Shown in pieces: positions 3,985 to 17,530 of a stretch of DNA of 20,436 nt. The stretch is taken from positions 1-20,436 of the IMG/VR virus record IMGVR_UViG_3300010153_000161; one strand, given 5' to 3'. Under the pieces are notes generated by a model, which searched no databases, was not told the origin of the DNA, and worked only from the letters and a program-made list of their open reading frames with translations. Position 1 is the stretch's first letter, and each line of letters starts with the position of its first letter. The translations under genes were made by a program, and so were the position numbers. The stretch is from a virus.

Positions 3985-5829
3985 TTATCCACCTCCTAAT
4001 GCTGTTTGATTATAAAGTTGATTCGCCTGTAAGTTAGCACCTTCTAGGTCACTTTGCACCACAAAAGACTTACCAACTGATTCTGTCCTTGAAACTTGTT
4101 CTGGCACTAAAGCTGCTGTCGGAGCTACACCACCACCACCACGACCAAAACCTCCTCCACTTGCTCCTGCTTCTTCTAGTAATTGTTTTACTCCTACAAA
4201 TGCAGTAACTATAGAAGCTACCGCCACAATAATATTAGCAACTAAAGAATAAGGGTCGCCTGAAGATTGTGAAGCAGCTCGTATAGCGTTAGCAGTTGAT
4301 ACAGCCTGAGCTAATAAAACATCCGCTATTGCAAAGGCTTTAGCTTGTTCAGCGTTTTCTCCTGCTAATTCTTCCATAGCTCCAAATAGCTGTCTGGTAG
4401 ATGAGACTAACAACTTCTGTCCTGCTTGTTTTATCCTAATCTCTTCGTCTGTCTCTTCTTGAGACTTATCTAGTCTTTCTTGTGCAAATTTGTCTGTTAT
4501 AATATCTAAGTCTTGTAAATACTCTTCCTGAACTTGTAGCAATAAAGCTACATTACCCTTTGCCATTTCTAAACGGTCATTGTATCTACTCTCTGCGTTT
4601 GCTCTTTCTCTCTCTTCATCACTTAAAGAGCTTAAATATAACTCTTCTTGTAAAGCTTCGTTGTCTGCTATCCTTTCTGCTTCGTTTCTTAGCTTTTCTG
4701 CTTCTTCTTCATCTGTAAATCTTTTACGTAATTTCCGTAAATCATTTTGATAATCTTCTTCTATTAACAGAAGTTGTGCTGCTGTAGCTCCTGCGTCCTC
4801 CGCTTTTTTCTTCTGCTCCTCCATACGAAGCTCTAAGACTTTCTCCTCTCTTAGCTGTTCACTTTCTATAGAGTTAAGTAATATCTCTTCATTAAGTTTC
4901 TTTTCTAAGTCAGCTAAATATTTAGCGTTAGCTTCTTCCTGTCGTAAGCTTTCAGCTTTTAACCTAGCAGCTTCTTTTTCTGCGTCTGCTCTGTCAGTAA
5001 TTAATTGATTTGCTTCTCCTATTCGCTTGTTATATTCTACAGTTTGAAAAGTAAGAGTCTCTGCTCTTATAGCTGCTTGCTCCTCCGCTTTTGCAACATC
5101 ATTAGCTAATCGTGTAGCTGTCTCTTTTTTTGATTCAAACCAGAGTGCCTCCCCTTTCTGTTGTGCTGCTCTTGCCTGTGTAACCTTTTCTAAAGCTGCT
5201 TCATTTTCTATTTGAGCAGTTTGAAATCTTATCGTAGCTTGTACTCCTACTCTGGCTTGCTCTCTTTGTGTTTCTAAATCCGCTTCCGTGTCTATTAACC
5301 CATTTAGACTTTCATTTAGCTTTTCTATAGCTACAGCTCTTTGTTGTTCACTTGCGTACTCATCGTCTAATACAGATAAATAAGCCTCCTGTTGTGCTAT
5401 TAAACTATTGGTTATCTCTTGTCTTTGCTCATTACTACGTTTAGTTATCTCAGCATTTCTTTTGTCTGCTGCTGAAGAAATACCTATAGCTTCAGATAGC
5501 TTGTCCCAATTTTCTATCAGTTGCTCTACAGCTATAATAGCAAGTCCTATTCCTACACTTGCCCAAGCTGCTTTTAACACTTTAAATGATTTTGATAGCC
5601 TACCTACAGACCTTGACGTAGAACGAAAAGACCTGACCGTTCTTTGCATCCCTCTGGGTAAAAGAGTAGAAAATAAATCACCTAATCCACTCCAGTCTTT
5701 TTTTAATGATTTAGAAGACTTAGCATTTCTTTGAGTAAAGTTGTCTATGTTCTTTTGAGCAGAAGCTAACCCCACCGAGGTTTCGTCTTCTATTATAATT
5801 CCCATTCCTATGTAACCTTTACTTGCCAT
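3985..5829 (-). CDS. Tail tape-measure protein (614 aa)
   Basis: Residues 1-100 are basic with RSFRSTSRSVGRLSKSF. A hydrophobic helix follows (ASVGIGLAIIAVEQLI). Residues 130-450 are a long charged coiled coil rich in E, K, R, Q and A. A second hydrophobic segment lies near 535-555 (SLVANIIVAVASIVTAFVGV). The tail is Gly-rich (GGGFGRGGGG) and ends with SFVVQSDLEGANLQANQLYN. This order (basic start, hydrophobic patches, coiled coil, Gly-rich end) is typical of tape-measure proteins, which set tail length and sit inside the tail tube. At 1.5 angstrom per residue it would predict a tail of about 90 nm. The start ATG 5829 overlaps the 55-aa gene by 11 nt. Confidence 0.82.
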   Translation of the reverse strand: MASKGYIGMGIIIEDETSVGLASAQKNIDNFTQRNAKSSKSLKKDWSGLGDLFSTLLPRGMQRTVRSFRSTSRSVGRLSKSFKVLKAAWASVGIGLAIIAVEQLIENWDKLSEAIGISSAADKRNAEITKRSNEQRQEITNSLIAQQEAYLSVLDDEYASEQQRAVAIEKLNESLNGLIDTEADLETQREQARVGVQATIRFQTAQIENEAALEKVTQARAAQQKGEALWFESKKETATRLANDVAKAEEQAAIRAETLTFQTVEYNKRIGEANQLITDRADAEKEAARLKAESLRQEEANAKYLADLEKKLNEEILLNSIESEQLREEKVLELRMEEQKKKAEDAGATAAQLLLIEEDYQNDLRKLRKRFTDEEEAEKLRNEAERIADNEALQEELYLSSLSDEERERANAESRYNDRLEMAKGNVALLLQVQEEYLQDLDIITDKFAQERLDKSQEETDEEIRIKQAGQKLLVSSTRQLFGAMEELAGENAEQAKAFAIADVLLAQAVSTANAIRAASQSSGDPYSLVANIIVAVASIVTAFVGVKQLLEEAGASGGGFGRGGGGVAPTAALVPEQVSRTESVGKSFVVQSDLEGANLQANQLYNQTALGGG

Positions 5830-15049: not shown

Positions 15050-15461
15050 CGCAAGCTGCTTCGTAGGCTTTTTCTATTTCTTTCATATAACTAAGCATAC
15101 AAGAACCGCATCTAGTTTTCTTTTTACGCTGTGAAAATACTCTCTCGTATACATCAATTACTAATTGCATCTCACCATCATATAAACGGTTGCGCATCAT
15201 AGCAGGCTTTAGAGTGTCTTCAAAATGTTTTTTATCCATATCGGTCATAGGTTTAGCGTATGGAAAACGTTTGTTTAGCCATTCTTTACGCTTACTACAA
15301 CCACAATCTTCTCCTAAGACTGTTTCAACTACCTTCTTAATTCCTGTCGCTTCAGTTATTTTCTCTATCGAGTCTCCTAAACCCTTTGATTTTTTCTTTG
15401 ACTTCTTCTTGCGCTTTTTTGAGGGCGTTGTAGAGGGTGCTTTTACTGATTCCTGTGGCAT
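15042..15461 (-). CDS. Conserved Cys-containing phage protein, unknown (139 aa)
   Basis: After a Lys-rich start (PSKKRKKKSKKKSK) the protein has GLGDSIEKITEATGIKKVVE then GEDCGCSKRKEWLNKRFPY. This is a signature I know from many Bacteroidetes phages, always without assigned function. A second Cys pair is in TRCGSCMLSYMKEI, so DCGC and RCGSC may bind one metal ion. ATG 15461 lies inside the sigma-like gene, giving a 110-nt overlap in another frame. There is no other Met before residue 72, and the Lys-rich start is usual for this family, so the overlap is likely real. Confidence 0.76.
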   Translation of the reverse strand: MPQESVKAPSTTPSKKRKKKSKKKSKGLGDSIEKITEATGIKKVVETVLGEDCGCSKRKEWLNKRFPYAKPMTDMDKKHFEDTLKPAMMRNRLYDGEMQLVIDVYERVFSQRKKKTRCGSCMLSYMKEIEKAYEAACDE

Positions 15462-15888
15462 TAGATAACGTTTTTAATGAGTGCGAATGGAGGTAATAAA
15501 TGCGAAATACCTCTGCATTAAACCAATCCATATCCTGCAATATACTATTAATATGCTTCATAGTTTTAGCTGTATCGTATTCCTTTTCAACATTATCCTC
15601 CACACTTTTAAGTAAAAATGCAGGGTAATTTACTATTTTTTCTGTGTGTTTTTTATACTTGTAATAGAATCTAGTGGTCTTACTAAAGCTACAAATTGCC
15701 ATAGTTCTACAGATATATTTTTTTAATTCTCCTTTTTTACATAGCTCTTCTAAAAGAGGTCTGGGTTCTTCTAAGTAATAAACAGCAAGGTCGTGAAGTA
15801 AGTCACCTCCGTATCCTTTAACATATCTTTTTGACACTTTAAGCAACTCGTCGTAGTTTTCTTCTAAGAATAACCTAACGCAACTCAT
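15352..15888 (-). CDS. Sigma-70-like / late regulator protein (178 aa)
   Basis: The N-terminal half has GGDLLHDLAVYYLEEPRPLL and KKYICRTMAICSFSKTTRFY, like sigma region 2-type helices with the usual 'DL.HD' and aromatic/basic face. The C-terminus has a region 4-type helix-turn-helix: YYLHSHSLKTLSNATGIS then KSTLYNALKKAQEEV. Sigma-like proteins of this size in phages direct host RNA polymerase to late promoters or bind DNA as RinA/ArpU-type activators. It follows NinG (14-nt overlap; ATG 15888) and precedes packaging genes, the usual position for a late switch. Which of the two modes applies cannot be read from sequence. Confidence 0.72.
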   Translation of the reverse strand: MSCVRLFLEENYDELLKVSKRYVKGYGGDLLHDLAVYYLEEPRPLLEELCKKGELKKYICRTMAICSFSKTTRFYYKYKKHTEKIVNYPAFLLKSVEDNVEKEYDTAKTMKHINSILQDMDWFNAEVFRIYYLHSHSLKTLSNATGISKSTLYNALKKAQEEVKEKIKGFRRLDRENN

Positions 15889-16273
15889 TAAATTTTCTCG
15901 TAAAATATTCTCTCATTTCAATCATTTCTTGTGTAGAAAACTTACGTGTTGTATTGCTCATAATTTCAATCTTTTCGGCTGTACCCTTCCCAAACACTTC
16001 GTCTAAGCGTTTACTAAAAATATACTGTTCTCCTCCTCTCATATTACACCGCTTACATTGTGGCATAACATTGACTAAACCGTTTTCAGGTTCGTACAAC
16101 CATCTTGTACTGTGCTTTGACCTACTCTGAAAGTGACCGCAATCCGTTTCATATAACCAGTCTTTTTTCGCACCACAAGTAAAACAGCTTATAAAACCGT
16201 TTTCGTCTGCGTTGCTCTTACGCACGTACTTACTTAGTGCATCGTCTAGCTTCTTTTTTTCTCGCTTTCTCAC
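15875..16273 (-). CDS. ninG: NinG/Rap-like recombination nuclease (132 aa)
   Basis: Cysteines C30-x2-C33 (ISCFTCGAK) and C73-x2-C76 (PQCKRCNMRGG) flank DCGHFQSRSKHSTRW (residues 44-58) and precede YIFSKRLDEVFG. This is the pattern of lambda NinG (Rap), a structure-specific endonuclease of recombination intermediates with an HNH-like zinc fold. The length is shorter than lambda NinG (about 200) because the N-terminal part is reduced to a basic stretch (MRKREKKKLDD). The start is GTG at 16273, only 11 nt after the T-tract of a terminator, so expression must come from read-through or an unseen promoter. Confidence 0.85.
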   Translation of the reverse strand: MRKREKKKLDDALSKYVRKSNADENGFISCFTCGAKKDWLYETDCGHFQSRSKHSTRWLYEPENGLVNVMPQCKRCNMRGGEQYIFSKRLDEVFGKGTAEKIEIMSNTTRKFSTQEMIEMREYFTRKFNELR

Positions 16274-16368: not shown

Positions 16369-16947
16369 TCAAAGATACGTTTTATTTTTTAATCTAGCAC
16401 CTACTCTAACTGGTTTTTTTAATTTAGGGACAGGCTCATTTAAAACATCTTTTAAATATTCACCTAACGGTTTATAATCTTTGGAGCGTTCTATGGGTTT
16501 ATAGTCTTCTGCTTTTTTCTCTCTATGCAACTTCTCCATTATTTCTGTCCTTATCTCACCTTCATACCTTCGTAAGCATTCTAAAATCTCTGCTGTCTTT
16601 AACCTCTCAAACAGTTTACCAAACTTCCCTTGCCTAATCATAATAAAGCAAGCTCTTAACTCTTCTAGTTTTAGAGTAGGATGTTCTTCTAAAATACTCC
16701 TACAACAAAATTGTAGCTCTTCATCTGTAGATAGGGTTTTGTTAGCGTCTATCTCTTTTATTAACCTACCTACCTCTGACATAATCCAACCGCGTACTAT
16801 AGCAGGGTTGTTTTTTACTGCTGTTCTAATGTTTGTGCCTTTTACCCAAGCATCTTTTGGGGTAACTAGCGAAGAGCTATCCTTTATTAACGAAATCGTG
16901 TAAGGCTTCAGGTGTGAAGTTGTCTTTGTTAAATCCTTTTTTTCCAT
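16369..16947 (-). CDS. Unknown protein after Rep (192 aa), possible helicase-loader equivalent
   Basis: The helical core ELQFCCRSILEEHPTLKLEE, LRACFIMIRQGKFGKLFERL and AEILECLRRYEGEIRTEI resembles a Bacteroidetes phage/mobile-element family ('FP.LK..D...CF..AK.G.YG..Y.....I..W...Y...R') that often follows the replication initiator. The C-terminus is Lys-rich (PKLKKPVRVGARLKNKTYL). By position it is where lambda P (helicase loader) lies, so a loader or replication accessory role is plausible but not shown. ATG 16947 overlaps the Rep gene by 71 nt; no nearer ATG exists before residue 56, so the overlap is accepted with some doubt. Confidence 0.68.
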   Translation of the reverse strand: MEKKDLTKTTSHLKPYTISLIKDSSSLVTPKDAWVKGTNIRTAVKNNPAIVRGWIMSEVGRLIKEIDANKTLSTDEELQFCCRSILEEHPTLKLEELRACFIMIRQGKFGKLFERLKTAEILECLRRYEGEIRTEIMEKLHREKKAEDYKPIERSKDYKPLGEYLKDVLNEPVPKLKKPVRVGARLKNKTYL

Positions 16948-17530
16948 TTGTGTGTGTTTTATTTCTTCTTTTCCATTGTCTAGCGCAAGCTTTCCAATCT
17001 TTTATTTTATTACCGCCTTTGACTTTCCATCCTACCCCGTCGTACCAATCTACAAATTTTTCTGCTTCTACTTTATCCAAACCCAAAGAAAAAAAGTAAT
17101 CTATACACTCCTCCAAAGAAGATGGTTTACCTTTCTTATTAGTAATATTGGTTAAAGTAGTATTGGTTATAGTATGTCTCACTAAAGTCTGGGTGTCACC
17201 CACACTAGATTCTGGGTGGGGGTCGCACTCAATTGAGGGTGTCACCCTCAGTAAAGTATGGGTGGCTTTTAACGTCCTATGACTACCACCCACTTTTTTT
17301 GTAACCTTTCTTTTTAGTAGTTTTTTCTTAACTAAACTAGCTATAGCTTTTTCTACTCCAGACTCACTTATACCTAACAAGTTAGCTAAATGACTATTAG
17401 AGACAAAACACTCTAAGTTGTTTTTAGAAAAAGAATCTACTTCTAAAAGAATTATTTTTTGCGTCCAAGATATTGTGGTGTCTAAATATAGAGCAGCAGG
17501 AATCCATACGCCTTTAAAGTTTCTACCCAT
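16877..17530 (-). CDS. Phage replication initiator (lambda O-like layout, 217 aa)
   Basis: The N-terminal part FKGVWIPAALYLDTTISWTQ, then KIILLEVDSFSKNN and SNSHLANLLGISESGVEKAI, SLVKKKLLKR is the winged-helix pattern (HTH_36-type) of phage replication proteins. Residues 87-117 are a low-complexity His/Pro/Thr linker whose DNA carries four 23-bp iterons. The C-terminal domain (EECIDYFFSLGLDKVEAEKF, DWKACARQWKRR) is typical of DnaD/DnaT-like replisome organisers and ends FTPEALHDFVNKG. The protein would bind its own origin inside the gene and recruit the helicase. The start ATG 17530 overlaps the 31-aa gene by 8 nt. Confidence 0.83.
   Translation of the reverse strand: MGRNFKGVWIPAALYLDTTISWTQKIILLEVDSFSKNNLECFVSNSHLANLLGISESGVEKAIASLVKKKLLKRKVTKKVGGSHRTLKATHTLLRVTPSIECDPHPESSVGDTQTLVRHTITNTTLTNITNKKGKPSSLEECIDYFFSLGLDKVEAEKFVDWYDGVGWKVKGGNKIKDWKACARQWKRRNKTHTNGKKGFNKDNFTPEALHDFVNKG
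17141..17169. repeat. Two A/T-rich 14-mers beside the iterons (possible unwinding element)
   Basis: On the plus strand AGTAATATTGGTTA (17141-17154) and AGTAGTATTGGTTA (17156-17169) are direct repeats 15 bp apart, next to the iterons and downstream of them in gene orientation. In lambda ori an A/T-rich stretch flanks the iterons in the same way. Because 15 is a multiple of 3 they also encode a repeated peptide (TITNTT-LTNITN), so the repeat could be protein-driven. Confidence 0.5.
17181..17272. repeat. Four 23-bp iterons within the replication initiator gene (putative origin)
   Basis: Plus-strand units start exactly every 23 bp at 17181, 17204, 17227 and 17250. Their first 15 bases are ACTAAAGTCTGGGTG, ACTAGATTCTGGGTG, ACTCAATTGAGGGTG and AGTAAAGTATGGGTG. 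Units 1 and 3 continue as GGGTGTCACCC, a palindrome. As 23 is not a multiple of 3, each unit is read in a different codon phase, so the repeat is kept at the DNA level, not the protein level. Iterons in the linker of the initiator gene are the lambda O/ori arrangement. Confidence 0.82.

Follow-up and report, generated by a model that had tools for sequence, protein, structure and literature searches.

Introduction

In bacteriophage lambda, the middle of the O gene contains an A/T-rich tract and iterons that are imperfect inverted repeats of 19 bp (PMC7466680). The annotated lambda iterons are 18–19 bp long, and their starts are 20, 24 and 23 bp apart. In plasmids of the pSK41 type, four Rep boxes are located centrally in the rep gene, and the origin encodes the linker between the DNA-binding N-terminal domain and the C-terminal domain of the protein (PMC5703833).

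The DNA studied here, called the window in the following, is a viral record of 20,436 bp whose main genes are located on the minus strand. An earlier note on this DNA had described an origin with the lambda O/ori arrangement and a different repeat. The dyads found inside the gene and the adjoining A/T-rich tract support this description.

The initiator gene and its repeat array

The features of the locus are the following:

16369–16947, minus strand: downstream gene, 192 aa, DUF6633-like, overlapping the 3′ end of the initiator gene
16877–17530, minus strand: predicted replication initiator gene, 217 aa (PHROG 270/428, Pfam HTH_36)
17141–17174, no strand assigned: A/T-rich 15-bp repeats of the AGTAATATTGGTTAA type, proposed unwinding element (TRF, 2.3 copies)
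17180–17202, plus strand: putative iteron unit with GGGTGTCACCC at 17191–17201, 23-bp spacing
17203–17225, plus strand: putative iteron unit, 23-bp spacing
17226–17248, plus strand: putative iteron unit with GGGTGTCACCC at 17237–17247, 23-bp spacing
17249–17271, plus strand: putative iteron unit, first in coding order, 23-bp spacing

The product of the initiator gene matches PHROG 270 (E 1e-18) and PHROG 428 (E 5e-14), which are both assigned to replication initiation, and also PHROG 186. It scores above the cut-off of Pfam HTH_36 (PF13730; 31.9 bits, cut-off 25, E 1e-7), and this domain is matched at E 0.01 by 52 of the 53 members of the initiator family. The matches to PHROG 270/428 and HTH_36 support the placement of the array within a replication initiator gene. 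The protein remains under the cut-offs of Phage_rep_O (18.1 vs 28.7 bits for PF04492 and 18.1 vs 45.5 bits for TIGR01610) and under the curated cut-off of DnaD_N (PF21984; 19.6 vs 27 bits), and no match to RepA_N (PF06970) was found in Pfam at E ≤ 0.1.

The AlphaFold2 model, obtained with a 53-row alignment and having a mean pLDDT of 71, predicts a winged helix (residues 12–96), a disordered linker (99–130) and a helical C-terminal domain (139–194). The comparison of this model with known structures returned a generic winged helix and picked out no single initiator family. Among the many winged helices to which the predicted N-terminal domain can be aligned is one from a solved Rep–DNA complex.

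The array consists of four units on the plus strand, which start at 17180, 17203, 17226 and 17249 with a pitch of exactly 23 bp, just as the earlier note had stated. The palindrome that the note had assigned to two of the units is present as GGGTGTCACCC, whose only exact copies in the window are those listed above; the chance expectation for this word in the window, with up to one mismatch allowed, is 0.06. The array encodes approximately residues 87–117. Its placement in the linker is thus correct for most of its length and does not hold for the first unit in coding order, which overlaps the last strand of the wing (91–96). The GC content of the array is 0.50, compared with 0.33–0.35 for the gene. 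The adjoining segment 17141–17174, which encodes approximately residues 119–130, has a GC content of only 0.27. The A/T-rich repeats that the earlier note had placed beside the array are present; their units are 15 bp long and are not a pair of 14-mers.

The significance of the period was assessed by permuting synonymous codons within the gene, which leaves the protein and the codon counts unchanged. At 23 bp the initiator gene has a self-match score of 16, which is reached by none of 1000 shuffles (mean 5.8, maximum 14). The top score over all periods, 24, is found at 46 bp, corresponding to two units, and is likewise reached by none of 1000 shuffles (mean 11.2, maximum 16). Of 17 other ORFs of the window put through the test, 16 do not exceed their own synonymous shuffles. 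The sole exception, the ORF at 15352–15888, has a period of 12 bp, which is a codon multiple. The lambda O gene, used as a positive control, was detected by the test (0/500). The rep gene of TP901-1 gave a period of 15 bp, for which 13 of 500 shuffles scored as high, and showed no comparable non-codon period. The dyads of the window array, scored as three-unit inverted symmetry at fixed pitch, are borderline (2/60 shuffles reach the score).

Selection at the DNA level

The use of synonymous codons was compared between subclades of clades A, B and C by taking the conserved amino acids and determining the fraction with an identical codon. This fraction is highest in the A/T-rich part (0.89/0.94/0.93 for clades A/B/C), followed by the array (0.83/0.68/0.71), the C-terminal domain (0.78/0.68/0.49) and the N-terminal domain (0.51/0.59/0.32). 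Because the array and the C-terminal domain have equal values in clade B, it is the A/T-rich part that shows the clearest contrast; the codon pairs compared are, moreover, not independent of one another. The period is out of phase with the codons and synonymous codons are over-conserved in the array; both observations agree with the selection on the DNA itself that had been claimed for the repeat.

Conservation of the period and replacement of the repeat word in relatives

From the viral collection, two scans retrieved 67 distinct viral genes related to the initiator gene with 30–100% identity. A tandem repeat is present at the same location of the gene in 59 of them, with a period of 23 bp in 33 and of 22 bp in 26. 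Two further genes score best at 21 bp without reaching significance, and in the remaining six no repeat of 21–24 bp exceeds the threshold. The unit spacing is thus conserved in relatives; this comparative evidence is decisive, and its signal is unusually clear. The earlier note had named the loss of the DNA period from genes that retain the linker as an observation that would speak against an origin. The comparison favours the origin, because 59 of the 67 genes keep a period of 22 or 23 bp, also in clades whose repeat word is wholly different.

The word is CACCC/GGGTG in the clade of the window and CCTCAC/GTGAGG in the next two clades. More distant relatives have CCGTA/TACGG, TGTCTA/TAGACA, CCCCAA and others. 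Among the relatives, the words follow the sequence of the recognition helix; this tracking is descriptive and does not constitute a test, because word and helix are inherited together. The distant branches formed by L125 and by the clade of L074–L087 have differing recognition helices and the common word CCGTA/TACGG, possibly as a result of convergence.

A maximum-likelihood gene tree was calculated with the linker left out. The 22-bp label requires a single change on this tree, at a modest support of 87/63. All period labels together require 7 changes, compared with 24 for shuffled labels, a clustering to which close relatives contribute.

In most of the representatives tested, three-unit dyads exceed the shuffles (0/60). 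The L088 gene has no tandem score, yet it contains dyads spaced by 23 bp; in L089 both tandem repeat and dyads are absent, and L068/L069 give a weak result. When whole contigs were scanned for non-codon tandem repeats of 18–30 bp, the array came out in most of them as the strongest or the only one, whereas G006 and G014 were found to be without such an array. The G002 contig (L154/L155) contains a 19-bp tandem repeat, TTTACGGGAAACGTACGGG, at 5496–5531 in initiator orientation, approximately 3 kb upstream of the initiator gene. This repeat is not a codon multiple and is possibly a second regulatory site.

Gene context and host

The same DUF6633-like gene directly follows the initiator gene and overlaps it in all 14 contigs checked. 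The similarity of the downstream gene of the window to DUF6633 (E 2e-4) is under the Pfam cut-off, and its AlphaFold2 model, with a pLDDT of 48, is too poor for use. No similarity to helicase loaders and no relation to P were detected. In cultured phages with distant homologues of the initiator, the next gene encodes a DnaB-type helicase, a P protein or a DnaC-like loader. By analogy of position with lambda P, we propose that the DUF6633-like protein may be a helicase loader or recruiter. Arrays within the gene are also present in some of these cultured phages, with a period of 22 bp in Vibrio phage 1.155.O and Pseudomonas phage HU1, of 23 bp in Vibrio phage 1.167.O and of 21 bp, a codon multiple, in Vibrio phage 1.061.O. 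No significant array was found in Flavobacterium phage morran9-1, in Vibrio phage 1.236.O or in the Porphyromonas phage homologues.

The second gene after the initiator gene (15875–16273, minus strand) encodes a NinG/Rap-like Holliday-junction endonuclease (PHROG 5034, E 3e-18; Pfam NinG above cut-off) and is part of a replication/recombination module. The gene at 15352–15888 on the minus strand encodes an ECF-like sigma factor (TIGR02937, E 6e-8; Sig70_bacteroi1, E 4e-6; both under the cut-off). The 12-bp tandem repeat of this gene, which exceeds the synonymous shuffles, is located in its 3′ part.

The relatives' contigs L152/L153 (G001), L162/L163, L164/L165, L166/L167 and L168/L169 are 28.4–29.4 kb long and have identical ends of 99–123 bp, which is the pattern that complete circular assemblies should show. 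The window probably represents part of a phage of approximately 28.5 kb. Over whole contigs the GC skew keeps the same sign, with no switch at the array; it is uninformative as an origin marker, because nearly all genes point in one direction. With 46 DnaA boxes against an expectation of 55, the window is not enriched in them, and the scan for promoters and terminators gave no result above chance.

The virus belongs to a group of uncultured marine bacteriophages. Among named isolates, the terminase is closest to that of Flavobacterium phages (39%), and 8 of 100 genomes from the family of a Saprospiraceae MAG contain related initiators, several of which match weakly. A Bacteroidota host, in line with the Bacteroidetes phage named in the earlier note, is plausible on these grounds.

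The array as a probable replication origin

We consider it highly probable that the array is an iteron-type replication origin located within the gene of its own initiator and adjoining an unwinding element. The 217-aa protein would bind the imperfect dyads 23 bp apart through its N-terminal winged helix, and the bound initiators would stack into a nucleoprotein complex. This complex would melt the adjoining A/T-rich repeats at 17141–17174. The C-terminal domain, perhaps assisted by the protein from the downstream gene, would then recruit the replicative helicase, so that replication would start at the array. Against this reading stand the six relatives with no repeat above the threshold, the borderline dyad score of the window and a GC skew that keeps its sign at the array, although co-directional genes do not require a switch. 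The earlier note identified the features correctly and very probably interpreted them correctly as well.

Binding of the initiator to the array could instead repress its own gene, with replication beginning elsewhere. A winged-helix protein with dyad sites would suit a repressor equally well, and the predicted domain resembles MarR-type regulators. However, the array is located 260–350 nt inside the coding sequence and not at a promoter, the conserved A/T-rich repeats that come after it are an origin feature, and most whole contigs scanned contain no second comparable array, so that an autoregulatory operator is improbable. Partition and packaging sites can also consist of dyad-containing repeat arrays, and the array might accordingly be another cis element, located in the gene by coincidence, such as a packaging (pac/cos), partition or recombination site. 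We regard this as slightly less probable still, because in 59 relatives with unrelated words the array stays within the initiator gene, which is most simply explained by a binder that this gene itself encodes and that co-evolves with the array. In the window, moreover, the terminase gene is several kb away.

The explanation in which the DNA repeat is a by-product of a low-complexity linker peptide retains almost no probability. The linker is predicted to be disordered, and the A/T-rich repeats of 12 and 15 bp are codon multiples encoding a Thr/Asn-rich peptide, as this explanation would have it. In the array itself, however, the units cycle through the three reading frames, since neither 22 nor 23 is divisible by three: among the relatives, units begin in each of the three codon phases, and the peptide encoded changes from one unit to the next. 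The A/T-rich part of clade B has a period of 13 bp, which is not a codon multiple either. The over-conserved synonymous codons and the absence of the window gene's period from all 1000 synonymous shuffles likewise speak against this explanation. In its simple form, the protein-repeat explanation is ruled out by the codon phases and the synonymous shuffles.

If the origin keeps its pitch and changes its word together with the recognition helix, for which the chances are about even, each of these genes would be a self-contained and self-specific replicon, able to switch its specificity at constant geometry. The relatives form a natural series in which the protein, its recognition helix and the DNA word vary at fixed spacing. 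With this series it can be asked what an initiator array must keep (the geometry) and what it may change (the word). For this group of uncultured marine phages, several of whose contigs of approximately 28–29 kb look complete, the origin is predicted with confidence from sequence alone. The synonymous-shuffle test for periods of 22 and 23 bp could be applied in a search for origins elsewhere; it also detected arrays in Vibrio and Pseudomonas phages.

Comparison with known systems

No description of such arrays in Bacteroidota phages was found among the papers searched. A close parallel is lambda ori/O, where the initiator gene likewise carries roughly four dyad iterons midway along its length with an A/T-rich tract after them, and where a partner gene, a putative one in the window, comes directly downstream. 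It differs from the window in its irregular spacing of 20/24/23 bp, as opposed to exactly 23 (or 22) bp here, and in its repeat words; furthermore, the window protein is under the Phage_rep_O cut-off, and no relation to P was detected for its downstream neighbour. The RepA_N origins of the staphylococcal pSK41/pTZ2162 type share the four units in the centre of the initiator gene, in the part that encodes the linker. In contrast to them, the window protein has no RepA_N match and belongs to a phage and not to a plasmid, and the host is probably a member of the Bacteroidota and not of the Firmicutes. In Firmicutes phages, the DnaD-like or replisome-organiser initiators, for example TP901-1 rep and that of Erysipelothrix phage SE-1, belong to the same broad winged-helix superfamily as the protein; it differs from them in scoring under the DnaD_N cut-off and in the non-codon period, for which the shuffle test gave no counterpart in TP901-1 rep.

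The system of the window would therefore work like the lambda and pSK41-type origins and, judged by its sequence, belongs to neither protein family. The chances are about even that what is conserved is the pitch of 22 or 23 bp, approximately two helical turns, together with the A/T-rich element, and that the word has been replaced repeatedly along with the recognition helix. The arrangement itself is already known; what is new is the family of its members and the comparative demonstration that the pitch is kept and the word is replaced.
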